Shown in pieces: positions 1 to 18,369 of a stretch of 64,000 nucleotides of DNA. Below the pieces are notes generated by a model. It was not told where the DNA came from. It saw nothing but the letters and a program-made list of their open reading frames with translations, and made no database searches. The position numbers were made by a program, and so were the translations under genes. Numbering within the stretch: the stretch's first letter is position 1; every line of letters begins with the position of its first letter. Origin of the DNA: Parafrankia irregularis (GTDB lineage Bacteria; Actinomycetota; Actinomycetes; Frankiales; Frankiaceae); NCBI RefSeq assembly GCF_001536285.1, contig NZ_FAOZ01000011.1, positions 124,001 to 188,000 of the forward strand. The letters run 5' to 3'.

Positions 1-1676
1 CGAGCTACCCGCCGGGATCGGGCCAGCAGGGACCCGGCCAGCCCGCGGGCGGCGGCTACCGCGGCCAGCCGCAGGGCGGGCCGCAGGGCCAGCCGCACCC
101 GGGCTACCCGGGCACGGGCGCCCAGCTGCCCGGTATGAGCCGCCCCGGCCAGCCCGGCTACAACCAGGCCGGCTACAACCAGCCCGGTTACAGCCAGCCC
201 GGTTACAGCCAGCCGGGCTACGGCCAGCCCGGCGGCAGCACTCCGCACCCACGACCACTGCAGGGCCCACCGAGCACGACGCCCGCGCCCGGCCCGCTCA
301 CGCCGCCAGGCTCGACACCACATCCGCGCCCGGTGGGGCCGCCACCAGGCTCGACACCGCAGCCGGCGCCACTGGGGCGTCCCGGGCCGACCCGTCCCTT
401 TCCCGGCCAGCCGGGCCAGGGCGGGTCGAACTTCGGCGGCCAGGGCTGGGGCGGCGCGAACGCGGCGCCGACCCAGCGCCCGCCGGCGCAGAACGTTCCG
501 CCGGGGAGCCAGCGGCCGCCCGGCCACCGCAACCAGGACAGCAACGACAACAGCCGCACCCTGATCATCGCGGCGGTCGTCTTCGTTCTGGTCGTCGCGC
601 TGACGGTTGGCCTCGTCGTGGCCCTGTCCGGCGGAGGCGGCAAGGACGACGGCGGCGACGAGGTCCGCTCCAGCCCGGCGAACGCTGTCGCCTACAGCGG
701 AGCGGCTGTCACCGTGCAGGGGCTGAGCCCTTACAGCCTCTCGATCGACGACCAGGGCGCGCTGCTGATCACCAGCCTCGCTACCGACCGGCTGCAGAAG
801 ATCTCCGCCACCGGTTCGGTGTCCGACCTCGCCGGCACCGGCTCGGGCGGGTTCAGCGGCGACGGCGGGCCCGCGACCGCCGCGAAGCTCGACGGTCCGG
901 GTTCCGCGGTGACCGACGGGAAAGGCAACATCTACATTCCCGACGCGCGGAACTACCGCATCCGGAAGATCGCCTCGGACGGGACCATCAGCACGATCGC
1001 GGGCACCGGCGTCGCCGGGTATTCGGGTGACGGCGGCCCGGCGACCGCCGCGCAGCTCAAAAGCGCGGAAAAGCTGGCTGTCGCCCCGGACGGATCGATC
1101 TACATCGCGGACTACGAGAACCACCGCATCCGGAAGATCGGCACGGACGGAATCATCACCACGATCGCCGGCACCGGCGTCGACGGCTACTCCGGAGAGG
1201 GTGGCCCGGCCACGGCCGCCACGCTGAACGGCCCGAACGATGTCGAGGTGGCCAGCGACGGCACCCTCTACATCGCCAATCTCGGCAGCGACACCATCCA
1301 GAAGATCAACACGGACGGAACCATCCACACCGTGGCCGGAACCGGCGAGCAGGGCTATTCCGGCGACGGCGGCCCGGCAACCAAGGCCCAGCTCTCCATT
1401 CCGTCGGTCTCCGTCGGCAGCAACGGCACGCTCTACATCGCCGACTACGGCAACAACCGGATTCGCAAGGTGGACGCGAACGGCACGATCACCACCATCG
1501 CCGGCACGGGATCCGAGGGCAGCTCCGGTGACGGCGGCCCGGCGACGGAGGCCAAGTTCACCGATCCGAGCTCGGTGGTCGAGGACTCCACCGGGGCGCT
1601 CTACATCGCCGATTCGGGCAACAACCGGATCCGGCGCATAGCCCCCGACGGCACGATCACGACGATCGCCGAGTAA
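1..1676 (+). CDS. NHL-repeat membrane protein, 5' end outside window
   Basis: The frame is open from base 3 and the Pro/Gly/Gln-rich composition is unchanged across the first in-frame ATG at 135, which has no ribosome-binding site, so the gene very likely begins upstream of the window. What is visible is a low-complexity cytosolic-type stretch with GYxQPGY repeats, one transmembrane helix (about 566-632 nt), then an extracellular beta-propeller made of at least five NHL-type repeats. Each repeat carries a SGDGGPAT-like signature followed by DGTLYIAD and a basic RIRKI-type end. The next gene has the same tail attached to a Ser/Thr kinase, so the missing N-terminus may be a kinase domain; that is inference. 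NHL propellers usually bind ligands or carbohydrate/protein partners. The reading frame ends in TAA at 1674-1676. Confidence 0.8.
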   Translation, partial: SYPPGSGQQGPGQPAGGGYRGQPQGGPQGQPHPGYPGTGAQLPGMSRPGQPGYNQAGYNQPGYSQPGYSQPGYGQPGGSTPHPRPLQGPPSTTPAPGPLTPPGSTPHPRPVGPPPGSTPQPAPLGRPGPTRPFPGQPGQGGSNFGGQGWGGANAAPTQRPPAQNVPPGSQRPPGHRNQDSNDNSRTLIIAAVVFVLVVALTVGLVVALSGGGGKDDGGDEVRSSPANAVAYSGAAVTVQGLSPYSLSIDDQGALLITSLATDRLQKISATGSVSDLAGTGSGGFSGDGGPATAAKLDGPGSAVTDGKGNIYIPDARNYRIRKIASDGTISTIAGTGVAGYSGDGGPATAAQLKSAEKLAVAPDGSIYIADYENHRIRKIGTDGIITTIAGTGVDGYSGEGGPATAATLNGPNDVEVASDGTLYIANLGSDTIQKINTDGTIHTVAGTGEQGYSGDGGPATKAQLSIPSVSVGSNGTLYIADYGNNRIRKVDANGTITTIAGTGSEGSSGDGGPATEAKFTDPSSVVEDSTGALYIADSGNNRIRRIAPDGTITTIAE

Positions 1677-1733
1677 GCCGGAAAAAGACATGCCCCGAAC
1701 GAATCGGAACAGCAGCGTGCGGAGAATGGCCCG

Positions 1734-4130
1734 GTGACTTCCATCGACCTGGGGCGAGTCGCCGGCGCGCTGACCGGCTACGAGCTCGGAGCGGAGCTCG
1801 GGCGCGGCGGTTTCGGCGCCGTGCTGGCCGGGCGGCATCGCCTGATTGACCGGGATGTCGCGGTCAAGGTCCTGCTGGAGCCGGCCGGCGCCCACGGCGG
1901 GGACGACAGCGACCTGCGGGACCGGTTCCTCTCCGAGGCCCGCGTCCTGGCCGGCCTGGACCACCCGCATGTCGTGCGCATCTACGACTACGTCGAGCAG
2001 GACGGCCTGTGCCTGCTGGTCATGGAGCAGCTCACCGGCGGCAGCCTGAAGACCCGCGGGCCGGGCCTGCGCGACCCGCGCGCCGCCTGCGCCGTCGGGC
2101 TGGCCGCCGCGGCGGCGCTGGCCGCCGCTCATGATCGCGGTGTCCTGCACCGGGACGTCAAGCCCGACAACCTGATGTTCGCCGGAGACGGCATGCCCAA
2201 GGTCACCGACTTCGGCATCGCCAAGATCCTTGAGACGACGGCGGCGACCACCACCGGCCTCGTCGGCACTCCGCGGTACATGGCCCCGGAGCAGATCACC
2301 GGCTCCCGGCTCGGGCCGGGCACCGACCTGTACTCCCTCGGTGTCGTCCTGTACGAGCTGCTCGCGGGGCGGACCCCGTTCCCCGCCGGCCTGACCGTCC
2401 CGGCGCTGCTGCACCACCACATGTCGGTGCCGCCGCTGCCGCTCAACGAGGCTCCGCCGCCGCTGGCGGCGGTGCTCCTCACCGCGCTCGCGAAGGAGCC
2501 GGCCTGGCGTCCGCCGACGGCGCACGACTTCGCCCTGTCCCTCGCCTCCGCGGCCACCTCCGTGTTCGGACCAGGCTGGCTCGCCGCCAGCGGCGTCCCG
2601 GTGCGGTTGGCTGACGACGTGCTCGCCGCCGCCGGCCACACCCAGGGCACCACGCCGAGGCCCGCCGAGATCGCCAGGCAGCTCGGGGGCGACGGATCCG
2701 CCGGCCGCCCGCCGTACGCGGATACCGCTCCGTACGCGGGTACCGCTCCGTACGCGGGCGCCGCTCCGTACGCGGGTACCGCGGGGTTAGCCCCGACCAG
2801 GGTCGAGGACTACGCGGATGAGGCCGTCGGCCCATCGACCGGGCACCGCGGGCCCAACGGGCCCAGCGGCCCCCACGGGCATCGCCAGTCGACCGGCCCG
2901 GGAGACCGTTCGCGGCGCGCGAAGATCATCACCGCGTCGGCGACGGCCGCGGCCGTGCTCGCGGTGGCACTCGGGCTGGGGATCTGGCTCACCGCCGGCG
3001 GCTCCGACCCCGAGGGACCAGCCTATGCGGGCAGTGAGGCTGTCGAGGTCAGCGGCCTCTACAGAGCGGACGGGATCGGCATCGGCCCCGACGGTTCGCT
3101 GTACCTCGCCGACAGCGGCTCGTCCGGACAATGGCAGGGCCAGGTCCTGCGACTGAGCCCCGACGGGACGCTCACCCACCTCGCCGGGGTCGGCCCGCCC
3201 GCGACCACGCCGAGTCCCACCGCCGAAAGCACAGACGCACCGACCTCTTCCCCATCGAGCTCACCGTCACCGACCCCGTCACCGACGCCGGTGCTCGGCG
3301 AGGGGGGGCCGGCCACACGCGCGGACCTGATCGCCCCGGTCGCGGTCGCCGTCGGCCCCGACGACGACGTCTACGTAGCGGACAGCGACGACGGCCGGAT
3401 CCGCCGCGTCGCCGACGGAAAGATCACCACCGCCGCCGGCGCCGGGCCGGGTGAGGGGTTCAGCGGAACCTCCGGCAAGGCCGTCGGCGCCAAGCTTTCC
3501 GACCCCCGAGCACTGGCGGTCTCCGACGAGGGCGACCTCTACATCGCCTCCGGATACCGCGTCCGCAAGGTGACGTCGGACGGCATCATCAGGGTGATCG
3601 CCGGCACCAGCGACTCCGGCACCACCGGCGACAACGGCCCGGCGGCGGAGGCGACGCTCACCAGCCCGTCCGGGCTCGCTCTCGCCGACGACGGAACGCT
3701 CTATGTCGCGGACAGCAGCGCGCACACGGTTCGCAGGATCTCGACCGACGGGAAGATCACGCTGGTCGCCGGTACGCCCGGCGAGTACGGCTACTCCGGT
3801 GACGGCGGCGCCGCGACGTCGGCGAAGCTCTACAACCCGCACGGCCTCGCGGTCGGGCCGGAGGGCGAGCTCTACATCGCCGACACCTACAACGACGTGA
3901 TTCGCGTGGTCACCACGGACGGTAAGATCAACACGTTCGCCGGCACGGATGACGCCAACGCGAACACCGCTGACGGTGCCATCGCGACCGAGACCGAGTT
4001 CAGTTATCCCTCCGGCCTCGCGATCGACGCCTCCGGCGCGGTGTACGTGAGTGAGCCCGACCGGGGTACCGTCCGACGGATTGGTCCGGACAAGTTCGTG
4101 ACGACCGTCCTGCGAAAGGCGGCCGACTAG
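1734..4130 (+). CDS. Ser/Thr protein kinase with extracellular NHL propeller
   Basis: This is a 798-residue receptor-type kinase. The GTG start at 1734 is preceded by GGAG at 1721. The kinase domain occupies about residues 15-285: glycine loop GRGGFGAV (23-30), VAVK with Lys45, HRDVKPDN near 140, DFG at 159 and an APE motif, so all catalytic residues are present. A low-complexity linker with PYAGTA repeats and an HG/GP-rich stretch leads to a transmembrane helix at roughly 398-420. The outside part is a propeller of about five NHL-like repeats interrupted by a Ser/Thr/Pro-rich loop near residues 490-520. The architecture implies that the propeller senses an extracellular signal and the kinase relays it. 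The gene lies 57 bases after the similar NHL gene, suggesting a tandem duplication and co-transcription. Confidence 0.93.
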   Translation: MTSIDLGRVAGALTGYELGAELGRGGFGAVLAGRHRLIDRDVAVKVLLEPAGAHGGDDSDLRDRFLSEARVLAGLDHPHVVRIYDYVEQDGLCLLVMEQLTGGSLKTRGPGLRDPRAACAVGLAAAAALAAAHDRGVLHRDVKPDNLMFAGDGMPKVTDFGIAKILETTAATTTGLVGTPRYMAPEQITGSRLGPGTDLYSLGVVLYELLAGRTPFPAGLTVPALLHHHMSVPPLPLNEAPPPLAAVLLTALAKEPAWRPPTAHDFALSLASAATSVFGPGWLAASGVPVRLADDVLAAAGHTQGTTPRPAEIARQLGGDGSAGRPPYADTAPYAGTAPYAGAAPYAGTAGLAPTRVEDYADEAVGPSTGHRGPNGPSGPHGHRQSTGPGDRSRRAKIITASATAAAVLAVALGLGIWLTAGGSDPEGPAYAGSEAVEVSGLYRADGIGIGPDGSLYLADSGSSGQWQGQVLRLSPDGTLTHLAGVGPPATTPSPTAESTDAPTSSPSSSPSPTPSPTPVLGEGGPATRADLIAPVAVAVGPDDDVYVADSDDGRIRRVADGKITTAAGAGPGEGFSGTSGKAVGAKLSDPRALAVSDEGDLYIASGYRVRKVTSDGIIRVIAGTSDSGTTGDNGPAAEATLTSPSGLALADDGTLYVADSSAHTVRRISTDGKITLVAGTPGEYGYSGDGGAATSAKLYNPHGLAVGPEGELYIADTYNDVIRVVTTDGKINTFAGTDDANANTADGAIATETEFSYPSGLAIDASGAVYVSEPDRGTVRRIGPDKFVTTVLRKAAD

Positions 4131-6406: not shown

Positions 6407-6565
6407 ATGAAGCAGTTGATCTGGCCGTGGGGAGTGACCATCTTCATCATCTTCTTCATGGTCACCTCGCCGGGAGACGCCGCCGATGTGGTCCACAGCG
6501 CCTTCGGTGCGCTGGGCACGGTGGCCGACGGGCTCAGCAGCTTCGTCTCCGACGTCGCCGTCTGA
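6407..6565 (+). CDS. 52-residue membrane protein at edge of T4SS-like locus
   Basis: The small gene starts with ATG at 6407 behind a strong CAGGAGGT site, which is the main support for it being translated. The product has one hydrophobic helix (about residues 4-20, WGVTIFIIFFMV) followed by an amphipathic tail ending ...SDVAV. No family is recognised. It faces the wall-hydrolase gene convergently (53 bases between stops) and may belong to the secretion-like locus, where single-helix proteins of this size are common. This assignment rests on position only. Confidence 0.7.
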   Translation: MKQLIWPWGVTIFIIFFMVTSPGDAADVVHSAFGALGTVADGLSSFVSDVAV

Positions 6566-6618
6566 CAGCGGCGCGACCGGCCGACACCGCCAACGACACC
6601 GCCAACGACAACCATCGA

Positions 6619-7617
6619 TCAGAAGCTTCGAGCCAGCGGTCGGGTCACCGCGACGACAGTCGTCCAGTCGGAGAGCTCCGAGAGCACGACCCCCCAGCGG
6701 GCGCCCTTCGCGGCGATGACCTGACCGTTCCCGACGTACATGCCGACGTGGCCCGGCGCGATGGCCGTCCCGTCGGAGCCGGGGATGAACAGCAGGTCAC
6801 CCGGCTGGGGCTCGACCCCGCTGACACGGGGACCGTAGGCCACCTGTTCGGTCGTGACCCGCGGGAGCGAGACGCCGATCTCCCGATAGGCGGCCTGCAC
6901 CAGCGACGAGCAGTCCCAGGCACCCGGACCCGTCGCCCCCCAGACGTAGGGCTTTCCGATCTGCGACCACATGAAATCGATCACCGGCTGAAGTGTCTCG
7001 ACCGACACCTCGACGCCGATGTCGAGCGAATCGCCGTACACCTGGGCCTGCGCCAGGATCGTACGGACATAGTTGCGCGTTTCCGGATAGGGCGGAACAC
7101 CGGCAAAGGCCAGCACCGCACCCGGGCCGGCGTTGTAGGCCGCCAGCATCTTCTCCTGCCCTGAACCGGGCACTGAGGCGACGGCCGCCGCGACCGCGCA
7201 GTCGTAGCGCGCCGCCGCGGGAATGGCATCGACCGGGTTCCACACATCTCCGCTGCCGTGGGTGGCCCAGGTCCCCGGCATGAACTGGGCTATTCCCATC
7301 GCGCCGACCTGCGACTGGGCACGGGGATTGAATCCGGATTCCTGGCGCAGCTGGGCGGCGAGCAGTGAGGGCGTCACCTCGGGGCAGCCGGCGGCGTTCG
7401 CCGCATCCGTGATCAGCTGCACGTACTCCGTCGGAATCCCCTCGGAGTTCGTGATCGCCCGCCCGCCGACGTTCTGCTCGTCGAGAAAGGGCGCGGCGAT
7501 CAGCAGAATCAGCACGGAGATCAGCAGAAAGATTCCGCCGATGGTCACGAAGCCGCCGACGCCGAGCCAGACCAGCAGGCGCCCTCCCCGGACCGTGCCG
7601 CGCGACGTCCTCGCCAT
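6619..7617 (-). CDS. Bifunctional lytic transglycosylase / NlpC-P60 peptidase
   Basis: This is a 332-residue membrane-anchored wall hydrolase. A transmembrane helix lies at about residues 20-43. The SLT-type transglycosylase domain (about 60-195) has catalytic Glu93 in RQESGFNP, GAMGIAQFMP and AYNAGPGAV. The NlpC/P60 domain (about 205-332) has Cys236 in DCSSLV and His290 in GHVGMYVG; the third polar residue is not obvious. The enzyme should cut glycan strands and stem peptides outside the membrane. This two-domain form is the VirB1/TcpG-type hydrolase of Gram-positive conjugation systems, which opens peptidoglycan for the channel. It is followed on the same strand by the lipoprotein candidate and the HTH gene upstream (8668 to 6619), a probable three-gene operon divergent from the main secretion operon. 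Confidence 0.92.
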   Translation of the reverse strand: MARTSRGTVRGGRLLVWLGVGGFVTIGGIFLLISVLILLIAAPFLDEQNVGGRAITNSEGIPTEYVQLITDAANAAGCPEVTPSLLAAQLRQESGFNPRAQSQVGAMGIAQFMPGTWATHGSGDVWNPVDAIPAAARYDCAVAAAVASVPGSGQEKMLAAYNAGPGAVLAFAGVPPYPETRNYVRTILAQAQVYGDSLDIGVEVSVETLQPVIDFMWSQIGKPYVWGATGPGAWDCSSLVQAAYREIGVSLPRVTTEQVAYGPRVSGVEPQPGDLLFIPGSDGTAIAPGHVGMYVGNGQVIAAKGARWGVVLSELSDWTTVVAVTRPLARSF

Positions 7618-7649
7618 CCCAGCCGCCGCCTCTGCTCGTCGCGTCCGTA

Positions 7650-8360
7650 CTACCGGCCCGGCGCGTCGCCGGCGGCGTTCTCGAGATCGGCGCCGGCGAT
7701 CCGCCAGGTGCCGTCCGTCCCGACCAGCATCGTGACCGCCGGTGTCGAAACCGTGATCTCGGCGGGCCCGGCACCGGAGATCGTCTCTCGACGCACGTTG
7801 AGCAGGAGCGCCACCTGCCCGGACGTGCTGGTGTCGACGCCCCCGACGGGTGTGACCGCGAGCACCGAGACCGTGGAGCGAGTGCCGGCGGCGCGCAGCT
7901 CGTCCCAGGCACGACCGGCCTGAGAGTCGTTGTCTCCCCCGGCGGTGCCGTCAGAGCCGCCGGTGCCGGCTCCGGCGAGCTTGGCGGCGAAGTCCGGGGT
8001 CAGGCAGTCACGGGCCCGTTCGACGCCGGCTGCCGGGCCGGCGTCGGTGCGGGCGTCGAACGACTGCCATTTCGTGAAGCAGTCACGAGCCACCGCAGCG
8101 GGATCTGTGGGATCAACCGTGGCCTGATTTTCAGCGGTGGCGGTGGCGAGCGGCGGACCCGGCGCCTGACTGGCTCCCGGCGGAGGCCCGGTCGTGGTCG
8201 GGGCAGCCGATGGCTGGTCAGAGGTGTCATCGAGCGCTGCACAGCCCGCCGCCGTAACAAGTAGCAGCGAGATCAATGTCACGAATCCAACAGCAACGCG
8301 GAACCGGGCGCGATCAAGGCGGTGGTGCGGTGTTCTTCTCGCGTGTCCGCGTGGTCTCAC
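7650..8360 (-). CDS. Secreted NTF2-like (VirB8/TcpC-like) protein, putative lipoprotein
   Basis: This is a 236-residue protein with a basic N-terminus, a hydrophobic segment (FVTLISLLLVTAAG) and a Cys that could be a lipobox, although the -3 residue is Ala rather than Leu. A Thr/Pro/Gly-rich linker precedes a C-terminal domain (about residues 90-236) with alternating helix and strand features ending in DGTWRIAGADL. That resembles the NTF2-like fold used by VirB8/TcpC and Mce-associated proteins. Its GTG start overlaps the stop of the HTH gene (GTGA, 8357-8360), so translation is probably coupled. In the context of a VirB4/VirB6 operon, a periplasmic-face scaffold role is plausible but not demonstrated. 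Confidence 0.75.
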   Translation of the reverse strand: MRPRGHARRTPHHRLDRARFRVAVGFVTLISLLLVTAAGCAALDDTSDQPSAAPTTTGPPPGASQAPGPPLATATAENQATVDPTDPAAVARDCFTKWQSFDARTDAGPAAGVERARDCLTPDFAAKLAGAGTGGSDGTAGGDNDSQAGRAWDELRAAGTRSTVSVLAVTPVGGVDTSTSGQVALLLNVRRETISGAGPAEITVSTPAVTMLVGTDGTWRIAGADLENAAGDAPGR

Positions 8361-8668
8361 TCGTGGCCGTCCAGCCAGTCACGGACCCGGCCGCGACGAA
8401 TGCGCCACTGATGACCGACCTTGCGCGCGGGGATCGCGCGCTCCGACAGGAGCTTCAGAACCGTGCTCTCCGACAGCCGCAACCAGGTCACCAGTTCGTC
8501 GACAGTGAGCACGTCGTCGTCGTCCGAATGGAGCGCCGGACGAGGCGACATCGCAGGTGACGCGCCTGCGGCCACCGGAGCGGCCGGCGGCTCCGCCGTC
8601 CTGGCCACGGGCCGGGCGGGCATTCGCGGCGGGCGTGACGAGGCCGTCGGAAAGCGATCCTGCACCAC
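8357..8668 (-). CDS. Excisionase-family helix-turn-helix DNA-binding protein
   Basis: This is a 103-residue protein whose last 50 residues are a MerR-like/excisionase (HTH_17) domain: LTVDELVTWLRLSESTVLKLL, RAIPARKVGHQWRI, RVRDWL. The first half is Pro/Ala-rich. Such domains are Xis-like accessory factors or simple regulators. Because no integrase is seen in the window, regulation of the divergent secretion operon from the 8669-8907 intergenic region is the more economical reading. It is the first gene of the minus-strand trio and its stop overlaps the next start. Confidence 0.85.
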   Translation of the reverse strand: MVQDRFPTASSRPPRMPARPVARTAEPPAAPVAAGASPAMSPRPALHSDDDDVLTVDELVTWLRLSESTVLKLLSERAIPARKVGHQWRIRRGRVRDWLDGHE

Positions 8669-8907
8669 CCAGGGCCCCCTTCTCGGCCGACAACCGACAG
8701 CCGTTCTGCGTCGGCGAGGGAGGCTAACACCGCAATGCCGACCCTGGCGAGTCCCAACTATCGCTTGTCATACTTGAACGGCTCGTGTTACATCGATCCG
8801 ACCGCAGCCGAGAGCAAGTAACAGTAAGTAACTGTAACTGGCACCAATTGGCCACCACCAACACCAGATCGAGGAACCAGTCAGACCTGCCAGGAGGGCG
8901 ACGGCGC
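8669..8907. promoter_or_regulatory. Divergent promoter region of the T4SS-like locus
   Basis: This 239-base divergent spacer should drive both the minus-strand HTH/lipoprotein/hydrolase trio and the plus-strand operon. A candidate plus-strand promoter is TTGTCA at 8765-8770, 17 bases, then TTACAT at 8788-8793. At 8816-8840 there is a run of AGTAA/TAACTG words (AGTAACAGTAAGTAACTG) and at about 8848 a CCAATTGG palindrome. These are candidate sites for the HTH protein encoded next to it. Confidence 0.4.
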
Positions 8908-11900
8908 GTGAGCGATGTGCCACAGGCACCGTACGGCGAGGAGGGGGACGCGCGGCCCGTTTCGCTGATTGGCGCCCGAATCCCTTCATCCACGCCATAC
9001 GCGGCCGAGCTCCCGGCTCGCGACGGCGAGAGCGACGACCGTTCCGCCACCCGGGCTGCCCGCCGCAGGCACCGCAGGCGCGGTGACACGGACGAGCCCG
9101 CCGCCACCGGCGCTGGTGACGGATCGTGGCAGGACCAGGCGTTCCATCTGGAGGATGCGGCACCCGGCGGCGCCAGGCCCACAGGCCGGTCCGGCATGTC
9201 GGGCTCAGGCCGAACCGGCATGCCGGAGCCAGGCCGGGCCGACCCGCCGCGCGCCGGCGGCCACAGCGGCCACAGCGGCCACAGCGGCCACAGCGGCCAC
9301 AGCGGCCATGACAGTGGCGATGGCAGCCAGCAGGAACCGCGCGGCCAGGCCCAGCGGCGCGGCCGGCGCCTTCCACGCACACCCCCGAGCGCCGGCCGCG
9401 ACACCTCGGCCACGGCCGGCGGTGAGGTGAGCGGCGGCGGGCGACGTGCCATCGCGCCACGCGCGGCCCGCCCGGAGCCGCCCGTCGCGGGCGAGCCGCC
9501 CCGGCGGGTCGAGGTGGCCCGGGTTCCCGCACCGGTGCCGCCCGGCCGGTTCGCGGCGACCCCGTCGCTGCCACGGGTCACAGCAGCCAACGACCAAAGC
9601 GCCACACCGGACGCGGCTGCCAACGACACCCTGAACCGCCGCCCCGTGCTCCGTCGGGCCGCCACGCCTCGCGCCGTCCCGCCGTCGGCGCCGATGGGCC
9701 GCAAGGACCCCAGCTTCCCGCCCGCCACCTCGGGCGCCCTGGCCAACACCGGCAGTTCCAGCACCGGCGTCGCTGCCGGTCCCGGTGCCACCGGCAGCCC
9801 CGGCGGCACAGCGGCACCAGGCCCCGCCGGAACGCCCCGCGGGCGCGCCGGGTCCGGTTCCGGCCGCGGTACCTCCGGGGCTTCCGGGGCCTCAGGTGCC
9901 AGAGGAACGATCAGCGGCTCCGGTGCCTCGACGACCTCGCCGGGCCAGCGGCCCGAGCCCGCGGAGCCGCCGGCGCGTCGCGGCGGATACCAGGGCGGCA
10001 CCAGCGCGCCGCCGCCGGGCCGGCGGCCCACGACGGCCGGCCCGCGCCGGCCCGGCCGGCCGTCGGCGTTCGCACCCAGGACATCCTCGACCGACCCGGC
10101 GCCCGTAACCGGCCCGGCGCCCGTAACCGATCCAGCGCCCACAGGCGACCCAGCACCCGCGCCGCCGACGGCCTGGGAGCAGCCCGGCTGGCCAGCCCAG
10201 GCACCAGCGGGGGCGGACGAGGCAGCGGCCCGGTCGGTCGATTCGTACGCGCCGCCGGAAGTGCCCAGCTACACCGGTCAGAGCGAAGTCAGTGGCGCGG
10301 AGCCCACCTACCCGTCCGAGATCTACCCAGCCGAGGCCCATCCGGCCACACCGTCGGCTTCCGCCGGCCAGGCCTGGCCCGCGGTGGACCCGGCCTGGCC
10401 GGCCGCCGACCCCGCCTGGCCCGCGGTGGGTCAGGCGTGGCCGTCGGCCGATCAGGCCTGGCCAGCCGAAGGTCAGGCGTGGCCGTCGGTCGAGTCCACG
10501 CCGGGCGCCGCAGACACCGCAGACACCGCCGGTGGCACCCTCGGCGACACCGCCGCCGCCGCGGCCTCCGCCTGGGGCGACGTCAACGGGTGGTCCCAGG
10601 AGCCCGGTGTCACCGAGGCCGCCACGGCACTCCAGCCCGAGATCCCGACGCTGCCCGTCGAGTCGGGTGCTCGCCCCGTCTCCGTCGCACCGCACGGCGT
10701 CGCCGGGGCGGATCACGTCGACCAGGTCGACGGCGAGCTCGCGACCGAGGCGGCAGACCAGGTCTCCCTGCTTGGTCATGAGCCGGACGCGGAGGAGAGC
10801 ACCGGCTACCCGCAGAGCGATGTCGACGTGTGGGGCGATGACGATGCCCCGCTGTCGTCGGTGTCCCCGGCGTCCCCGGTGTCGTCCGAGGACGGGCACC
10901 GGCGGCGTCCGTCGACGGCGCTCCTGCCATCGGGCCGGCATCGCAGGTCAGGCCTCGAACCCGACCACGCCCAGGAGCACCCGTCGGCGGTCGCGAACCG
11001 AGCCTCGTCCCGGAGCGCCTGGCCGGGGCAGGAGACCTGGGCCGATGCGGACGACGACGAGCCCTGGGAGGAGATCCCGCTGCGGATCACTCTCATGGAC
11101 CGTGCCGCAGCCGTCCTGCCCGGCTCGTGGCGGATCGCGGTGACCTCGCTCTTCCCGTACTCGGGCACCACGACGCTGGCCGGCGTCGTCGGTCTGACCC
11201 TGGCCGGTGTCCGCGCGGAGCCGGTGCTCGGTGTCGATCTCCATCCGGGGACGACCACCCCCGGCTTCGTGCCCCCCACCGCCGACAGCATCGAGATCGA
11301 CGAATCACGTGGTGACAACCTGGTGAGCCGCGTGGGCAGCCGGGGTGTCACCACCGTCTCGGACATCGCGCGGCAGCGCGGATCCGGCGCCGCGATGCCA
11401 CCCGAGGAGGTTCAGGCCCTCATCGGCGCCCGTCGCTCGGGCGCCATGTTCGACCTCGACGTACTGCCCATCGAGCGCCCCGCGGGAAAGGACGCGGATG
11501 CGAACGCGGGCGCGGGCGCCCTGGTGCCGGTGGACGAGCCGGTAACGCCGGGAACGCTCCGAACCGTGCTCGGCGCGCTGGCCCACGCCTATCCGCTGAT
11601 TCTCCTGGACGCACCGGCGGCGGCCCCCCTCACTCCGACGGCGATCCGCTCCGCCGACGCGGTGATTCTCGTGACGCTGGCGACCGCCTCTGATCTGGAG
11701 ACCACCCTCGCCGACCTGCTCGACCCGCAGGGCGCGCTGGCCGGCGTCGGGGTGAACAGCCGGGAACGGCTTCGCCGCGAGGAAGCCGGAGCCCAGCCCG
11801 GCCCCGCTGTCATCGCCGCCGTGGTGTCACCGCGGCGAGGGCGGCCCTCACCCCGGACCAGGACCGCCACGGCCCAGCTGGCCCGCTATGTCGACGCAAT

Positions 11901-12261
11901 CGTGCGGGTCCCCTACGACCCGCGCCTCGACCCCAGCCGCGGAACCCCCGTTCGGATTCCGAGGCTGCGCTGGGCGACCCGGCGGTCCTATCTGCGGCTG
12001 GCCGCCGAGACCGTGGACGCGCTGGCCGCAATGGCAGACGCCGAGGTCAGCGCGCCCGTGCCGGCGGACCGCCCACCCCTGAGCCCACCGTCGCCGCTAG
12101 CGATTCCCAACGGTTCGACGCGGCTACACACCGGCGATGCCGATCACCCCGAGGTGCCCGGCGTATCATTTGGCGACCTGCGGCCCGGAAGCAAACCCAC
12201 GCGGGTGTCCGGGCCGGATCGTCCGGGCGGTCAACCGCCTGCGGGAGGGGAACCAAGATGA
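8908..12261 (+). CDS. MinD/ParA-like ATPase-fold protein with long disordered N-terminus
   Basis: The best start is GTG at 8908, 10 bases after AGGAGG (8892-8897), giving 1117 residues; an open frame continues upstream to 8785 without a ribosome site. The first roughly 720 residues are disordered Pro/Ala/Gly-rich sequence with GHS repeats and six AWPxxxx repeats (about nt 10375-10490). The C-terminal 350 residues resemble a MinD/ParA domain: WRIAVTSLFPYSGTTTLAG at the Walker A position, a VDLHPG switch-like segment, LILLDAPA as a Walker B-like strand, and later VILVTLA. The P-loop lysines are absent, so ATP hydrolysis is doubtful. The layout resembles EspI-type proteins of ESX loci. It is the first gene of the plus-strand operon, ending in an ATGA overlap with the next gene. 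Confidence 0.85.
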   Translation: MSDVPQAPYGEEGDARPVSLIGARIPSSTPYAAELPARDGESDDRSATRAARRRHRRRGDTDEPAATGAGDGSWQDQAFHLEDAAPGGARPTGRSGMSGSGRTGMPEPGRADPPRAGGHSGHSGHSGHSGHSGHDSGDGSQQEPRGQAQRRGRRLPRTPPSAGRDTSATAGGEVSGGGRRAIAPRAARPEPPVAGEPPRRVEVARVPAPVPPGRFAATPSLPRVTAANDQSATPDAAANDTLNRRPVLRRAATPRAVPPSAPMGRKDPSFPPATSGALANTGSSSTGVAAGPGATGSPGGTAAPGPAGTPRGRAGSGSGRGTSGASGASGARGTISGSGASTTSPGQRPEPAEPPARRGGYQGGTSAPPPGRRPTTAGPRRPGRPSAFAPRTSSTDPAPVTGPAPVTDPAPTGDPAPAPPTAWEQPGWPAQAPAGADEAAARSVDSYAPPEVPSYTGQSEVSGAEPTYPSEIYPAEAHPATPSASAGQAWPAVDPAWPAADPAWPAVGQAWPSADQAWPAEGQAWPSVESTPGAADTADTAGGTLGDTAAAAASAWGDVNGWSQEPGVTEAATALQPEIPTLPVESGARPVSVAPHGVAGADHVDQVDGELATEAADQVSLLGHEPDAEESTGYPQSDVDVWGDDDAPLSSVSPASPVSSEDGHRRRPSTALLPSGRHRRSGLEPDHAQEHPSAVANRASSRSAWPGQETWADADDDEPWEEIPLRITLMDRAAAVLPGSWRIAVTSLFPYSGTTTLAGVVGLTLAGVRAEPVLGVDLHPGTTTPGFVPPTADSIEIDESRGDNLVSRVGSRGVTTVSDIARQRGSGAAMPPEEVQALIGARRSGAMFDLDVLPIERPAGKDADANAGAGALVPVDEPVTPGTLRTVLGALAHAYPLILLDAPAAAPLTPTAIRSADAVILVTLATASDLETTLADLLDPQGALAGVGVNSRERLRREEAGAQPGPAVIAAVVSPRRGRPSPRTRTATAQLARYVDAIVRVPYDPRLDPSRGTPVRIPRLRWATRRSYLRLAAETVDALAAMADAEVSAPVPADRPPLSPPSPLAIPNGSTRLHTGDADHPEVPGVSFGDLRPGSKPTRVSGPDRPGGQPPAGGEPR
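9259..9303 (+). repeat. Five tandem 9-bp GGCCACAGC units in coding sequence
   Basis: Five perfect copies of GGCCACAGC encode five Gly-His-Ser units in the disordered region of the MinD-like protein. The unit length is a multiple of three, so copy-number change would alter the linker length without breaking the frame. Confidence 0.95.
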
Positions 12262-12695
12262 GCGTGGCTGCGGCAACCGCCTCGGTAACAGCCTTTCTCG
12301 CCGTGGAAGTCAAGCCCGACGAGGCCAAGGCGCCCGGCATCAATGCGCTGAAAGACCTGGTCAACGGGCTGGCAGCGTATGCGGTCGTCGCCGCCGTGGC
12401 CTCCGTGTTGTTGGGCGGAATCGCGTGGGCTCTCGGTGAGCGGATGGGGCTGGACCGCGCTTCGGCCGTCGGCAAGAGCGGTGTCCTCGCGGGCTTCGGC
12501 CTCGCCTTCCTGGTCGGTGCCGCCGCCACCTTCGTCAACTTCTTCATCGCCACCGGCAGCAGCGCGGATGACGCCACCGGCGACACCAACAGCATGCGTC
12601 CGCCCGCAGTGGTACTGACCATCACCCCAGGCCCCGCCGAAGACATCGTCGATGATCCCGACGTGGTCCATGCACCGCCGTCCGCAGACTTCTAG
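12258..12695 (+). CDS. Two-helix membrane protein, VirB2-like
   Basis: This is a 145-residue protein starting with ATG inside the previous stop (ATGA). Two hydrophobic helices at about residues 40-58 and 74-97 are separated by a short polar loop (ALGERMGLDRASAVGKSG), with a polar acidic tail. Size and topology match VirB2/TcpD-type subunits and small two-TM proteins of actinobacterial conjugative loci (possibly the DUF6112 type; recalled, not checked). It has no cleavable signal peptide. The position between the MinD-like gene and the VirB6-like gene supports membership of the transfer apparatus. Confidence 0.78.
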   Translation: MSVAAATASVTAFLAVEVKPDEAKAPGINALKDLVNGLAAYAVVAAVASVLLGGIAWALGERMGLDRASAVGKSGVLAGFGLAFLVGAAATFVNFFIATGSSADDATGDTNSMRPPAVVLTITPGPAEDIVDDPDVVHAPPSADF

Positions 12696-12767
12696 GCGGT
12701 TCCGGAGGTATCTGGCCTCCGACATTGCGATGATGACCCTGCCGGCAACGGAGGGGAGTAGGCGTTG

Positions 12768-13544
12768 GTGAGCCTCGCAGAGTGGGCATTCGGACGTCTG
12801 ATCGTTGTCATCGTCGCAGCGTCAACGGTGACCGCGGTCGGAGTCGGCACCGTGACTTTCTTCATCGGACGGCATTCGGTGGACAGCAGCCCTGAGGCAT
12901 CGGTCAGCGCCGGGACGGAACCCGCCGCGCCCTCGGCGCAGGCTTCGGCGGCGCCGACAGCCGTGGTCCCCACGCCCGACGATGTGCCCACGCCCACAGG
13001 CGAAGCCGGCCCGGTCGGCGCCCCCACGCGGGTCAACGAGTTCGGGGTCCCGGTCGGCTACCCCCACACAAAGTCCGGCGCCATAAGCGCCTGCGGAAAC
13101 TACGTTGCAGTAACGAGCGTCGCGAAAAATCGCGAACCCACTCGATCTCACGACATAATTCTTTCGATCTCCGACGAAAACACCGCCGCAAGGCTTTCCA
13201 ATCTCCTATCCCAGGTCGACACGGAGACTGCAAAGAATTTCAATATCCCGTCGGTCCTCTCCCCGCAGTTCACACTGAACCATCGAGTTATCGGCTACAA
13301 GATAACTAGCTACGGGGAGAACGTGAGTAAGGTTGAGGTCCTCTCAGCCATTGCCGCAGGAGTGACCGACGGGACCCCGAATCTGCAACCGTCCATGCAC
13401 TGGGGAACAGATCTCTGCACGATCAACTGGGACGGTTCAGATTGGAAACTTCGTGATATTTCAGGAGGGAGCGAAGGGCACGCTATGACAGAGCGAAGCT
13501 CGGAGTCCTTCGAACGCTTCGCTCTCGCAGGGGTGACTTCATGA
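12768..13544 (+). CDS. Bitopic membrane protein of T4SS-like operon, low-GC body
   Basis: Start GTG at 12768 (TTG at 12765 is also possible) follows GGAGGGGAG at 12750-12758. The product is about 258 residues: one N-terminal transmembrane helix (about 8-30), a Ser/Ala/Thr/Pro linker, then an extracellular domain starting NEFGVPVGYPHT and containing SGAISACGNYVA. That motif recalls conserved hypothetical proteins of actinobacterial conjugative elements. Residues from about 105 onward are encoded by DNA of only about 53% GC (224 of 420 bases, 13081-13500, counted by hand) in a roughly 70% GC setting, with codons such as AAA, AAT and ATA that neighbours avoid. The stop overlaps the next start (ATGA). 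Function is unknown; a VirB8- or VirB5-like accessory role is possible. Confidence 0.8.
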   Translation: MSLAEWAFGRLIVVIVAASTVTAVGVGTVTFFIGRHSVDSSPEASVSAGTEPAAPSAQASAAPTAVVPTPDDVPTPTGEAGPVGAPTRVNEFGVPVGYPHTKSGAISACGNYVAVTSVAKNREPTRSHDIILSISDENTAARLSNLLSQVDTETAKNFNIPSVLSPQFTLNHRVIGYKITSYGENVSKVEVLSAIAAGVTDGTPNLQPSMHWGTDLCTINWDGSDWKLRDISGGSEGHAMTERSSESFERFALAGVTS

Positions 13545-14959
13545 CGACTGCACCAGCCAAAGAGGTTCTCGCCGTCCCGAACCCCCTTTCTGGTATCGGA
13601 GATGCAATCTCCGGGATTGCCGGCGGGGCTGCCGACGACTTCTTGGACTCGGTTGGAAAAGCGTTTTGCAACATGGCGGCGGACCTTTCGTCGTCCGTCT
13701 TCAGCTTTGCGGCACAGAAGACCGCTGTAGATCTCAACGCGCAGTATGTCGTCGACAACTACAACATCGTCTTCGGCGTATCGGTGCTCATCGTCACCGG
13801 GCTCTTCCTCTGTTCGTGCACCGTAGCGGCACTACGGGGCGATCCGCACGTGTTCGTCCGGGCCCTGGCCACCACCGGCACGGCGATCATCGGCTCGTTC
13901 ATCGCCCTGACGCTGCTACAGATGGTCCTGGCCGCCTCGGATGGCATGGCCGAGGCCTTCGGCAATGACAAGGCCCTGGGAGCGGACCTCGTAGCACAGC
14001 TCCGAGAGCTACCCGAACAGGGAAATTTCGCGCTAGATCTAGTGCTGTCCCTCCTGGTGGCGATCTTCGCCTTCACGCTTTTCGTCGTGCTCTACATCCG
14101 CAAGGTCGCGATCATCGTGGTGGCGGTGTTCATCCCGTTGTATCTGGCGGGGCAGCCCACGATGACGACCAGCGCATGGATGAAGCGCGCCACCGAGACG
14201 CTGGTGGCGCTGATTTTCGCGAAGCCCGTCATCTACGCGATTTTCGCGCTCGGTGCCGGCATCGCCCAGGACACCGGCGGATCCACAGTTGACCAGACAC
14301 TGAGCATTCTCAGTGGTGTCGTAGTGATGATCGCGGCCGTCCTCTCGCCGTTCATGCTGATGCACCTGCTCGGATTCGCCGACGTCCAGCTCATGCGCGC
14401 GGTCGGGTCTGCTGGGCAGCGCAGTGCGGCGTCGTTCGGGCACGGTGCCGGTGCGCTGCTCGGTTCGACGTCCCGGGAGACGTTCCGCGGAATCGGTTCA
14501 CGGCTCCAGACCAGAAACCGGGGAATGCTCGGCGACGCGGGTGCCTTCGGCGGCTCGACCGTTCCCGCGGCCCGTCCGGCGGTGCGGCCCGGCCGCGGAG
14601 GGTCCGGATCCCCGGCGCCGGTCGGAACGCCTGCCCGTGCGGGTGCCGCCGGGACTGTACGCGCCAGGGTCAACCGCTCGGAGGGTTCGGGTGTCGGCGT
14701 CGGCGCGGCGCCGGCCGGGACGAGGTCCGGCCGGAACACCGTCGGCGCGACCGCCGCGACGCGAGCCGTCCCCGCCAGGGCGGGAGCTCCCAGCGGGGGC
14801 GGCGGCCGAGCGGCGGCCGCAGCACCGCCGCGCACCCCGGTGGCCCGGACCGCCGCCCCGGCCGCCCACGTCTCAGGCAGCACCGTGGCCAGGCCGCCGG
14901 TGACTCCGCAGGCCGCACCGCGAGTCACGCCGCCGGCACGCACAGGAGGTGGCGAGTAG
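13541..14959 (+). CDS. VirB6/TrbL-like polytopic channel protein
   Basis: This is a 472-residue protein with an N-terminal amphipathic region (ISGIAGGAADDFLDSVGKAF) and roughly six transmembrane helices between residues 75 and 285. A loop contains basic/aromatic residues (AWMKRATETLVALIFAKPVIYAIF), and a long Ala/Pro/Gly/Arg-rich cytosolic tail runs from about 300 to 472. This matches the VirB6/TrbL/TcpH group that forms the inner-membrane part of type IV channels. The ATG overlaps the previous stop and the next gene starts 3 bases after its stop, so translation is coupled through the operon. The tail is probably disordered and could contact the ATPase. Confidence 0.85.
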   Translation: MTTAPAKEVLAVPNPLSGIGDAISGIAGGAADDFLDSVGKAFCNMAADLSSSVFSFAAQKTAVDLNAQYVVDNYNIVFGVSVLIVTGLFLCSCTVAALRGDPHVFVRALATTGTAIIGSFIALTLLQMVLAASDGMAEAFGNDKALGADLVAQLRELPEQGNFALDLVLSLLVAIFAFTLFVVLYIRKVAIIVVAVFIPLYLAGQPTMTTSAWMKRATETLVALIFAKPVIYAIFALGAGIAQDTGGSTVDQTLSILSGVVVMIAAVLSPFMLMHLLGFADVQLMRAVGSAGQRSAASFGHGAGALLGSTSRETFRGIGSRLQTRNRGMLGDAGAFGGSTVPAARPAVRPGRGGSGSPAPVGTPARAGAAGTVRARVNRSEGSGVGVGAAPAGTRSGRNTVGATAATRAVPARAGAPSGGGGRAAAAAPPRTPVARTAAPAAHVSGSTVARPPVTPQAAPRVTPPARTGGGE

Positions 14960-14962
14960 CCC

Positions 14963-16465
14963 GTGGTATCCGAACGCAGCTATCGATTCGGGCCCCTGGA
15001 GCGCGGCGGGGTACTCCTCGGCATGCGCTGGCCCCAGCTGGCGCTCCTCATCGGCGTCATGCTGTCGGTGCTGGGCGCGCTGCGTTCACCGTTGATACTC
15101 GTTCCCCTGTGGGTGCTGCTGGCCGCGGGGTTCGCCTTCGTCGCGTTCGTCCGGGTGGAGGATCGTAACCTCGACCAGTGGGTGCCGATCATGTTCGGCT
15201 TCGCGATGCAGAAGGTGACGGGCGAGACAGTGTTCCGCGGAGGCTACTTCCGACTCGGTCCCACCGAGGACCGGATTTCCAGGACGGTCCTGCCGGGGCC
15301 GCTGTCGGGCCTGGTCATCCTGTCGTTCCCGGTGGGTGGCGGCCGGTACGTGGCCGTGGTCAAGGACGCGAAGAAGCAGACCTACACGGCGGTCCTGCAG
15401 GTGAAGGGCAGCCAGTTCGCCCTGCTCGAGTCCGGGGATCAGCAGTCCCGGGTCGACGCCTGGGGCGAACTGCTCGCCGGCCTGACCGGTGGTGGCGGCA
15501 AGCTCTCCCGCATCCAGTGGCTGGAACGGACCCTGCCGGACTCCGGTGACCAGCTTCAGCGGCACTGGCGGGTCCGCGGCCACCACGACGACTCCTGGGC
15601 CGCGCAGGCCTACGAACAGGTCATCGACGCGGCCGGCCCGGTCGCGCAACGGCATGAGACCTACCTGTCCTTCCAGCTCCGGGCGAAGGACGCGCGCCGT
15701 GCCATCCAGCGGGCCGGTGGCGGCGACGAAGCGGCCTGCGCGGTGCTGCTCAGCGAGCTGCGGACGATGGAGGCCGCACTGGCGCGGGCGTCGATCAACA
15801 CCGTCGGCTGGCTCCCGCCCCGCGCGCTCGCCGCGGTCATCCGCACCACCTACGACCCCTACTCGATCGAGATGATCGACGCGCGGGGTGGCGCGAGCAC
15901 CGATCTCGCCGGTGGTCTCAAGGGTCTGCCGTCGGGCATCAACCCGGCCATCGCCGGGCCCATCCGCACGGTGAACGCCTGGGATCACTACCGCACCGAC
16001 TCGGGCTTCCACACCACCTACTGGATCAACGGCTGGCCGCGGGTCCCGTCCCCGGCTGCCTTCCTCGCGCCGCTGCTGATGGAGACCACCTGCCGGCGCA
16101 CCGTCTCGCTCGTGGTGGAACCGCTGCCCGGTCGCAAGGCGGAGAAGGCGGTGAACCGGCGTCGCATGGCGCACATCGGCGAACAGCAGATGCGTGACAA
16201 GGTCGGCAAGGTGACGACACAGCGGGACGTCACCGAGGCCGACGAGGTCGAACGGCGCGAGCAGGAGCTGATCGCCGGTTTCGGCGCGTTCCGCTTCCAC
16301 GGGTTCGTCACCGTCTCCGCGGACGACCTGGAATCCCTCGCCGACGCCTGCGGTGAGGCGGAGACCCTGGCGTCGCGCAGCCGGCTGGAGATGGTGCGGC
16401 TCGTCGGCGAGCAGGACCAGGGCTTCAGCATCGGGGCGCTGCCGCTCGCGGTGGGGGTGGCATGA
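14963..16465 (+). CDS. PrgI/VirB3-like membrane protein with cytosolic domain (SCO6880-type)
   Basis: This is a 500-residue protein starting at GTG 14963, with AGGAGG at 14944. Two transmembrane helices lie close together at about residues 22-38 and 41-56 (LALLIGVMLSVLGAL, LILVPLWVLLAAGFAFVAF), as in PrgI/TcpE/VirB3 proteins. The rest is cytosolic and resembles the N-terminal part of VirB4-type proteins. I recall the Streptomyces family named after SCO6880 having this architecture; that match is from memory. The following gene supplies the ATPase part, so together they look like a VirB3-VirB4 unit split differently from the classical form. The end overlaps the ATPase start (ATGA). Confidence 0.82.
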   Translation: MVSERSYRFGPLERGGVLLGMRWPQLALLIGVMLSVLGALRSPLILVPLWVLLAAGFAFVAFVRVEDRNLDQWVPIMFGFAMQKVTGETVFRGGYFRLGPTEDRISRTVLPGPLSGLVILSFPVGGGRYVAVVKDAKKQTYTAVLQVKGSQFALLESGDQQSRVDAWGELLAGLTGGGGKLSRIQWLERTLPDSGDQLQRHWRVRGHHDDSWAAQAYEQVIDAAGPVAQRHETYLSFQLRAKDARRAIQRAGGGDEAACAVLLSELRTMEAALARASINTVGWLPPRALAAVIRTTYDPYSIEMIDARGGASTDLAGGLKGLPSGINPAIAGPIRTVNAWDHYRTDSGFHTTYWINGWPRVPSPAAFLAPLLMETTCRRTVSLVVEPLPGRKAEKAVNRRRMAHIGEQQMRDKVGKVTTQRDVTEADEVERREQELIAGFGAFRFHGFVTVSADDLESLADACGEAETLASRSRLEMVRLVGEQDQGFSIGALPLAVGVA

Positions 16466-18369
16466 GCTACGACCACGGCGCCGCCGGCTACGACGTCTAC
16501 GGCGCCGGCGCCGGCGACGACTACGGCCACGACTACGACGGCACCGGCTACGACGGCACCGGCGAGGACCCCGGCTACCAGGCCAGCGGGTACGTCGATC
16601 TCGGTGGCAGCCAGCGCAGCCGCCGCCGGCAGGCGAAGGCACAGGCGGCCCACGAGCGGCGGTCCCGGCGGGCCGAGCGGGCCGCGGCCAACGCGGAACG
16701 GGCCTCCATGCGCCGGGCCCAGTCGTCGCTGCGCCGCGGCGCCCAGCCGCCGCGGCTGCTCGGCCCCTTCGCCGGCCGCGCCTTCCACAAACTGCGCCTG
16801 CCGGCACACATGGAGACCACGGCGCAGATCGCCGGGATCTACCCGTTCGTCGTCGATTCCGGGCTCGACGCCCCGGGCATGTACATCGGCCGGCACGTGT
16901 GGTCGGGCAACTCCTTCGACTTCGACGTCTTCGAGCTGTACCGGCAGCAGGTGATCGAGAACCCGAACTTCGCGGTGTTCGGCGCCGTCGGCTCGCGCAA
17001 GTCCGCGCTGCTCAAGACGCTGATCTCCCGCGGTTCCGCGTTCGGCTACCAGGCCGCCGTCCCCTGTGACCCGAAGGGTGAGTACACCCGGCTGGCGCGC
17101 CGCCTCGGCTGCGAGCCGACCTACATCGGGCCGGGCCTGTCGACCAGGCTCAACCCCCTGGACGCCCCACCGCGCCCCCGGGGCATCGCGGACGCGGACT
17201 GGGCCCGGGAGGTGAAGCGCGCCCGCTCGGCGCTGCTGTCCTCGCTGATCGAGACGGCCAAGGGCGTGCCGCTGACACCGGCCGAGCACACCGCCGTCGA
17301 CCTCGCGCTCGACGTCGTCACCCGGCAGATCACCGGCGCCGACCCGGATCGCTGGGCCACCCCGCTGCTCCCCCACGTGCTGGAGGCGATGACCGACCCG
17401 TCCGAGGAGGACTGCTCGGCCCTGCCGATGACCGCCATGGAGCTGCGTGACGCGTCCCGGGACGCGACCCTGACGCTGCGGCGGCTCACGCACGGTGCAC
17501 TCGGTGGTCTCTTCGACGGCCCGACGACCTCGCCGCTGGACTTCGACAAGCCGATCGCGGTGCTGAACCTGGAGCGGGTCCAGGGCAGCGACGAGATGAT
17601 CGCGCTGATCATGACCTGTGCGCAGGCCTGGATGGAAGCGGCGCTGATGCGCCAGGACGGCGTGCAGCGCTACGTCGTCTACGACGAGTGCTGGCGGCTG
17701 ATGCGGTTCGCGGGGCTGGTCCGCCGGCTGTCCGCCCAGCAGAAGCTGGCGCGGCAGTGGGGCTGCGCGAACGCCATCGTGGCGCACCGCATCTCGGACC
17801 TGCTCTCGGCCTCCCCCGACTCGGTGGAGATCGCCAAGGGCCTGCTCGCCGAGACGGCGATCCGGATTCTCTACAAGCAGGCGTCGGACCAGATCGCCGA
17901 CACCAAGGAGGCACTCGGCCTCACGGACGTCGCCGCCGACCTGCTGCCCCGGCTGGACCCCGGCTACGCCCTCTGGCTGATCCAGCACCGTGCCTTCTAC
18001 GTCGAGCACGTGGTCGGCGACCTGGAGATCCCGGTCGTGCTCAACGGCTCGAAGATGCACGGCGAGGTCGACGACACCAACCTCGTCCCCGACGATCTCG
18101 ACCCCAGCGAGCTCGACCCACCCGAGCTCAACCCCCGGCTGACATCCGATCCGCCCGGTGTGGCCTTCAGCGTGCCCGCGCCGATGCCGGTGCCCGCGGC
18201 GGGTCAGCTGACCCACGCCTACCACGACGAGCGGGGCCACGACCCGGCCGAGGAGGACGAGGAGAACCTCGTCGCGCGGGCGCACTGGGCGGCACCACCC
18301 CTCGTGCGGGACGGCGTCCACCACATCCAGGTCGGCGACCCCCAGATCGTGGACGCGCCACCCAACTAG
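16462..18369 (+). CDS. VirB4/TraC-like conjugation ATPase
   Basis: This is a 635-residue protein. A Tyr/Gly/Asp-rich N-terminus and a strongly basic Arg/Ala segment (about residues 53-97) precede the FtsK/HerA-type ATPase fold. Walker A is GAVGSRKSALLKT from residue 174; the Lys-Ser pair is present but the preceding Gly is Arg. Walker B is YVVYDECWRL near residue 405. VAHR followed by SDLL and a C-terminal GYALWLIQHR segment are typical of the VirB4 C-domain. It should energise substrate or subunit movement. It is the last gene of the operon; two palindromic repeats follow before a convergent gene. Confidence 0.92.
   Translation: MSYDHGAAGYDVYGAGAGDDYGHDYDGTGYDGTGEDPGYQASGYVDLGGSQRSRRRQAKAQAAHERRSRRAERAAANAERASMRRAQSSLRRGAQPPRLLGPFAGRAFHKLRLPAHMETTAQIAGIYPFVVDSGLDAPGMYIGRHVWSGNSFDFDVFELYRQQVIENPNFAVFGAVGSRKSALLKTLISRGSAFGYQAAVPCDPKGEYTRLARRLGCEPTYIGPGLSTRLNPLDAPPRPRGIADADWAREVKRARSALLSSLIETAKGVPLTPAEHTAVDLALDVVTRQITGADPDRWATPLLPHVLEAMTDPSEEDCSALPMTAMELRDASRDATLTLRRLTHGALGGLFDGPTTSPLDFDKPIAVLNLERVQGSDEMIALIMTCAQAWMEAALMRQDGVQRYVVYDECWRLMRFAGLVRRLSAQQKLARQWGCANAIVAHRISDLLSASPDSVEIAKGLLAETAIRILYKQASDQIADTKEALGLTDVAADLLPRLDPGYALWLIQHRAFYVEHVVGDLEIPVVLNGSKMHGEVDDTNLVPDDLDPSELDPPELNPRLTSDPPGVAFSVPAPMPVPAAGQLTHAYHDERGHDPAEEDEENLVARAHWAAPPLVRDGVHHIQVGDPQIVDAPPN

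Follow-up and report, generated by a model that had tools for sequence, protein, structure and literature searches.

Organization of the locus

The window analysed here, a stretch of 64,000 nucleotides from contig C11 of the 9.5-Mb Parafrankia irregularis genome, contains at positions 6619-18369 a locus resembling type IV secretion systems (T4SSs), made up of nine genes on two strands that flank a divergent control region. An earlier note had described a T4SS-like locus whose plus-strand genes touch or overlap; all open reading frames (ORFs) that it named are present, and the plus-strand junctions, ranging from -4 to 69 bp, support an operon. Overlaps of 4 bp occur at 12258/12261, 13541/13544 and 16462/16465, and gaps of 69 bp (12695/12765) and 3 bp (14959/14963) separate the other neighbours; on the minus strand the genes follow one another in the order 8668-8357, 8360-7650 and 7617-6619. 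Because of this spacing the nine genes are assigned to two operons, one of which includes a small helix-turn-helix (HTH) gene that has to be added to the set first described. With its VirB4, VirB8-fold and VirB6-like subunits the locus is a T4SS in the broad sense of the term.

Products of the plus-strand operon

A single VirB4 profile (CD1110) spans the last two plus-strand genes, its columns 203-361 aligning with the C-terminus of the 14963-16465 product and columns 373-721 with the product of 16462-18369. The former belongs to the SCO6880 family (NF042935, 2.9e-110), which includes CmdC of Streptomyces, and has a weak match to PrgI (E 0.087); the latter matches the VirB4-like CD1110 family (NF045971, 1.6e-19) and VirB4 of known structure (PDB 4ag5, 1.1e-25), aligning to TrwK 446-739. 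These alignments indicate that 14963-16465 is a PrgI/VirB3-like N-terminus fused to the N-terminal half of VirB4, and that 16462-18369 is the C-terminal ATPase half alone (CmdB type). The names VirB3/PrgI and VirB4 proposed earlier for the two genes hold for the PrgI-like start and for the ATPase, not for a simple VirB3/PrgI protein or a whole VirB4. The ATPase half features the P-loop GAVGSRKS and the Walker B motif VVYDE. The pattern G-x-V-G-S-R-K-S is present in all 19 Frankiaceae copies of one set and all eight of another (both including the window); 97 VirB4 relatives have Gly before the P-loop Lys, versus Arg in Frankiaceae (GxGKS to GSRKS), where the Lys and Ser of the P-loop and the Walker B residues are kept. 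The SCO6880-family protein also matches EccE of type VII secretion systems (T7SSs; TIGR03923, 2.4e-12; Pfam EccE, 2.9e-5), and these matches hint at a relationship between ESX EccE and the PrgI/VirB4N module of T4SSs.

Upstream of this pair, 13541-14959 encodes a VirB6-like polytopic membrane protein of the SCO6881/CmdD type (NF047967, 2.8e-17; at least five hydrophobic segments), a VirB6 assignment already made in the earlier note that holds in the profile search. The first gene after the MinD-like one, 12258-12695, encodes a DUF6112 protein (Pfam, 1.3e-10) with two transmembrane (TM) segments by hydropathy, which is a VirB2-like candidate; no direct VirB2 match was obtained for it.

The remaining plus-strand gene, 12765-13544, had been left among the small membrane proteins; it encodes a homologue of CmdE (SCO4130 position), with hidden Markov model (HMM) matches of 1e-13 to 3e-19 to cmd loci, and is also homologous to the equivalent genes of contig C47 and plasmid pSP01. 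Its AlphaFold2 (AF2) model has a mean predicted local distance difference test score (pLDDT) of 63, and that of the minus-strand product 7650-8360 a score of 61, both of modest confidence. When compared by VIA-align, the 7650-8360 model reached Z 10.3-11.4 over about 120 aa against the VirB8 family, with other NTF2-like folds at 9.4 or below, and the core of 12765-13544 reached Z 9.0-9.9 against VirB8 structures, with the next NTF2-like folds at 8.9 and one RsgI9 NTF2 domain at 9.4. VirB8-family structures fill nearly all of the top 24-25 rows for both models, so that VIA-align favours VirB8, clearly for 7650-8360 and narrowly for 12765-13544; ranked by Foldseek E-value, the ARC6/PARC6 domains of plastid division come first for both. 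For 12765-13544, where this margin is small, the assignment is backed by homology with CmdE and with the corresponding conjugative-cluster genes. PDB profile searches with alignments of 12765, 7650, SCO6880 and SCO6881 returned no meaningful match, and the folds of 12765 and 7650 are therefore predicted ones; compared profile to profile, these two showed no significant similarity (probability 3%). Taken together, the models predict that the locus encodes two VirB8-fold proteins, one of which (7650-8360) had been recognized as VirB8-like before.

Minus-strand products, control region and MinD-like protein

The 6619-7617 product is a VirB1-like peptidoglycan hydrolase with an N-terminal TM segment and with SLT (Pfam, 1.8e-15) and NlpC/P60 (2.4e-21) domains, in agreement with the earlier VirB1 label, and is a relative of TgdA (SCO4132); its motifs ESGFNP, DCSSL and GHVG are intact in 17/17 Frankiaceae copies checked. 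The VirB8-fold protein 7650-8360 carries an invariant Cys (C40) after a hydrophobic segment and is thus lipoprotein-like, and a protein of this type has so far been seen in Frankiaceae only. The small DNA-binding protein 8357-8668, of the HTH_17/excisionase-BldC type (Pfam HTH_17, 3.6e-10; TIGR01764, 1.1e-9), is retained in Frankiaceae and is probably a local regulator; a PDB sequence search with it gave no match, and its kinship with BldC is one of domain type only.

Between the two operons, upstream of the MinD-like gene, an alignment of 14 Frankiaceae intergenic regions revealed a conserved block of about 80 bp on neither strand in particular (8764-8841; CTTGTCATACT...GTGTTACATCGAT...GCAAGTAACaGTAAGTAAC), which is a candidate control region. 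It contains direct AAGTAAC repeats, spaced by about 10 bp, that occur nowhere else in the window; BldC is known to bind direct repeats (PMC5859096). A window search found no WhiA, BldD or sigma-70 consensus sites at the promoter region.

The MinD/ParA-like protein (8908-12261; its start is probably 8908 rather than 8785) has a conserved N-terminal peptide and a long Pro/Ala-rich linker. It matches Soj weakly (E 0.025), and a profile match (E 7e-5 over 67 columns) links it to the MinD-like proteins encoded in conjugative clusters. The Walker A site reads SLFPYSGTTTL or SGRTT, with no Walker lysine in 11/11 aligned Frankiaceae copies, which makes the protein a candidate pseudo-ATPase; the counterparts in three conjugative clusters have Arg at that position.

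Conservation across Frankiaceae

A profile search detected an orthologous VirB4 in 31/35 Frankiaceae genomes, the four without one being G007 (63% complete), G011 (3.0 Mb), G118 (1310 contigs) and G121 (1200 contigs). Identity among the orthologs is 82-98%, and the VirB4 of the window is 98% identical to that of Parafrankia sp. EUN1f. In the Frankiaceae loci uncut by contig ends the nine genes keep the same order and strand, which excludes a chance arrangement. Simple Nei-Gojobori estimates of the ratio of nonsynonymous to synonymous substitutions (dN/dS) against two congeneric genomes are 0.05-0.29 for most genes, 0.16-0.38 for 12765-13544 and about 0.4 for the MinD-like gene with its long linker, indicating that the locus is under purifying selection. 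We consider it very improbable that the locus is functionless today, the residue of an old conjugative element in decay: such decay could be read from the altered P-loops of both nucleotide-binding proteins and from the fragmented SCO6880-family gene of two uncultured symbiont assemblies, but dN/dS lies well below 1, the hydrolase motifs are intact and the order is conserved family-wide. In those two uncultured Frankia symbiont genomes the SCO6880-family gene consists of two overlapping pieces in different frames (L050 10192-11941 and L118 8090-9839, which are one and the same genome, Candidatus Frankia meridionalis; L059 10439-12246), either by assembly error or by a real break.

The locus is flanked by an FAD oxidase gene upstream and by a NERD-domain gene, the ergothioneine genes egtA-D and ilvD downstream, and the FAD, NERD and egt neighbours are kept in most Frankiaceae loci read. 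Further along the window lie dnaB, rplI, ssb, rpsF, murJ and the genes for thioredoxin reductase and thioredoxin, a set that in actinobacteria is found close to the origin of replication. Window 135-4130, immediately upstream of the locus, encodes an NHL-repeat protein beside a Ser/Thr kinase with NHL repeats; several other Frankiaceae have similar genes upstream as well. One Frankiaceae genus (g2) has, in three genomes, a gene of about 660 aa without known Pfam family that is convergent to VirB4 (L050 13749-15728, L053 7873-9870, L056 13596-15596).

In CcI3 the VirB4 copy lies at about 40 kb, which we take to agree with the position given in a secretome study of 2008. That study found only one VirB4-like gene common to three Frankia strains, near the origin, most similar to a Streptomyces ATP-binding protein and placed in surroundings with many secreted proteins (PMC2266912). 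The VirB4 gene of the present locus is thus one already noted in 2008 (PMC2266912).

Coupling protein, relaxase and mobility

None of the Frankiaceae loci examined contains or adjoins a coupling-protein or relaxase gene, and the earlier note had likewise seen neither in the present one: VirD4 is missing between VirB4 and the flanking genes in all loci with the downstream side read, and neither a relaxase nor an integrase was found among the window ORFs scanned, nor any tRNA in the window. Genome-wide, searches with PF12696/PF02534 detected no coupling protein in seven locus-bearing genomes (G006, G008, G009, G010, G015, G019 and G020), two of which are single-contig assemblies, and the same searches were positive in five other genomes. 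TrwC, the relaxase family that the genome-wide search covered, was not found in G006, G019, G020 and G117. Family-wide synteny and the lack of integrase, relaxase and VirD4 at the locus led us to reject a mobile element; the same genes with mostly the same neighbours across Frankiaceae point to a stable chromosomal site, as first suggested.

An unlinked coupling protein and relaxase do exist in the window's own genome. Contig C47 (L006 598-16000) carries a MobF relaxase, VirD4, VirB4, an SCO6880-family gene, a VirB8-like gene, a gene in the DUF6112 position, a MinD-like gene and a divergent SLT gene, and contigs C8, C43 and C45 carry related gene sets with VirD4-type matches. These could be the partners if the locus were a conjugation apparatus served in trans by such proteins, or by a TraB/FtsK-type translocase of an actinomycete integrative and conjugative element (AICE). 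However, the VirD4 clusters have their own VirB4 and SCO6880-family genes, the seven genomes above retain the locus without any detected VirD4, and deletion of the S. coelicolor cmd cluster left transfer of an SLP2-derived plasmid unchanged (PMC2782261), all of which renders this explanation improbable.

A MinD-like gene stands at the same place in C47, in plasmid pSP01 and in a Streptomyces plasmid, and so belongs to the usual content of such clusters rather than being the unusual addition it had seemed. For the same reason we rejected an ESX/T7SS reading, which the EccE match and the MinD/EspI layout might suggest; the scanned ORFs of the locus and its vicinity include no EccC, EccB or WXG100 protein, and EccE-like similarity is confined there to the SCO6880-family protein.

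Relationship to the Streptomyces cmd locus and proposed function

The cmdABCDEF genes (SCO4126-4131) affect aerial hyphae, septation and chromosome segregation; deletion of cmdA alone has no apparent effect on sporulation, and deletions of the other cmd genes do (PMC2782261). The adjoining transglycosylase gene SCO4132 (tgdA) is likewise cited as affecting differentiation (in PMC6585502). We found the cmd cluster in four Streptomyces-like genomes, where published mutagenesis primers match the VirB4 genes at 26-29/31 bases, one of them falling on the Walker A lysine (PMC2782261). Scanning named genomes directly for a cmdB DNA pattern gave no match, because the printed primers represent the strand opposite to the one translated. 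The order is divergent SLT, small membrane protein, CmdE, CmdD, CmdC, CmdB and CmdA, the SLT gene not being found within the L094 stretch. CmdA matches the VirD4 profile at 1e-33 to 1e-47 (HMM), and one of two copies tested has a weak Pfam TraG-D_C match; by these profile matches we show CmdA to be a divergent VirD4. Since cmdA is dispensable for sporulation and its product is VirD4-like, the role of cmd in sporulation is already VirD4-independent. Combining both facts, we infer that the only cmd gene dispensable for sporulation encodes the coupling-protein homologue, which is absent in Frankiaceae.

In the VirB4 tree a set of 17 rows (97/83) unites Frankiaceae and cmd and leaves out the SCO6878 type and most mobile relatives, and in the SLT tree the Frankiaceae hydrolases group with those of cmd, C47, pSP01 and C43/C45, again apart from the SCO6878 type. 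Our reading is that the locus is probably a T4SS of the actinobacterial SCO6880/Cmd type, domesticated and inherited vertically, that is VirD4-independent and serves an envelope or developmental role, not conjugation; the link to the cmd/tgdA developmental locus goes beyond the interpretation of the earlier note, which finds partial support. Several points weigh against this reading. The cmd branch of the VirB4 tree measures 3.7 changes per site, with other long branches near, so that the grouping may be an artefact; the SCO6880 tree does not settle the Frankiaceae-cmd grouping; neither a MinD-like nor an HTH gene was detected in the cmd loci; and every Frankia copy is known from its sequence alone. 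In addition, Frankiaceae VirB4/SCO6880 identity is about 33-47% to the SCO6878 type and mobile relatives versus about 25-30% to CmdB/C (for VirB4, about 34-47% to the SCO6878 type and most mobile proteins and 29-30% to CmdB). Orthology with the SCO6878 type was nevertheless rejected despite the higher identity, because gene order, the SLT tree and a DUF6238 insertion differ. Given this conflict of identity and tree, we call the Frankiaceae locus a relative of cmd that shares its plan, without claiming proven orthology.

The domesticated T4SS reading draws on the gene content, folds, conservation, VirD4 absence, altered P-loops and cmd kinship described above; for the assembly of a complex, its developmental role and its regulation by the HTH protein we propose the following. 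An ancestral T4SS would have lost its DNA-feeding part (VirD4 and relaxase). VirB6 would combine with both VirB8-fold proteins and the VirB3/VirB4N-VirB4C pair into a membrane complex, and the SLT-P60 enzyme would open the peptidoglycan; the MinD-like protein without catalytic lysine may be a positional or scaffold subunit, and the HTH protein may control both divergent operons. By analogy with the Streptomyces relative a role at the cell envelope or in development is likely, in hyphal growth or sporulation as with CmdB-F plus TgdA. Since a coupling ATPase is missing and the two nucleotide-binding subunits are both altered, the VirB complex could conceivably take part in the morphogenesis of hyphae or sporangia as a static scaffold or a gated channel rather than a powered translocator, a suggestion we make only tentatively. 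VirD4-independent protein secretion, exporting for instance enzymes or symbiosis factors, would fit the presence and conservation of all core channel parts, the existence of T4SSs without VirD4 according to a review (PMC12857230) and the secreted-protein-rich surroundings reported in 2008 (PMC2266912), but we regard it as unlikely: the locus contains no conserved candidate substrate gene, the altered VirB4 P-loop may not suit a powered export motor, and the nearest functionally studied relative shows a morphogenetic phenotype.

If the domesticated T4SS reading is right, T4SS parts have been recruited for a core cell function in mycelial actinobacteria, and a VirD4 partner that persists but is dispensable for sporulation in Streptomyces and is gone in Frankiaceae marks a testable path from conjugation to development. 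In Frankia, a plant symbiont that fixes nitrogen and offers few genetic handles, there would also be a conserved envelope apparatus to study in sporulation, vesicle formation or symbiosis.

Comparison with known systems

With the minimal Gram-positive T4SS of the PrgI/TcpC type the Frankiaceae locus shares VirB1-, VirB3/PrgI-, VirB4-, VirB6- and VirB8-type parts, and it differs in its VirB4 split in two and in its lack of both coupling protein and relaxase. The pSP01/C47-type conjugative clusters have a divergent SLT-P60 gene and MinD-like, VirB8-like, VirB6, SCO6880 and VirB4 genes in matching order; in contrast, they lie on a plasmid or small contig, their VirB4 P-loop is normal, VirD4 directly follows VirB4 (in pSP01 with one small gene between) and C47 has a MobF relaxase. 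Clusters of the SCO6871-6884 type (e.g., S. angustmyceticus p1) resemble the locus in their C40 hydrolase, DUF6112, VirB6, SCO6880 and VirB4 genes, with 40-46% VirB4 identity, but they have a DUF6238 gene between SCO6880 and VirB4, a same-strand hydrolase, often a VirD4 nearby and a sporadic distribution. The cmd/tgdA locus keeps a divergent VirD4-like CmdA that is absent in Frankiaceae, and its CmdB has a normal P-loop (GESGNGKS) and about 30% VirB4 identity; like the Frankiaceae locus it is chromosomal and not mobile, with a divergent SLT-P60 gene followed by VirB8-like, VirB6-like, SCO6880-like and VirB4 genes in matching order, so that the arrangement CmdF-E-D-C-B fits the Frankiaceae locus, the small VirB2-like CmdF being matched by position and size only.

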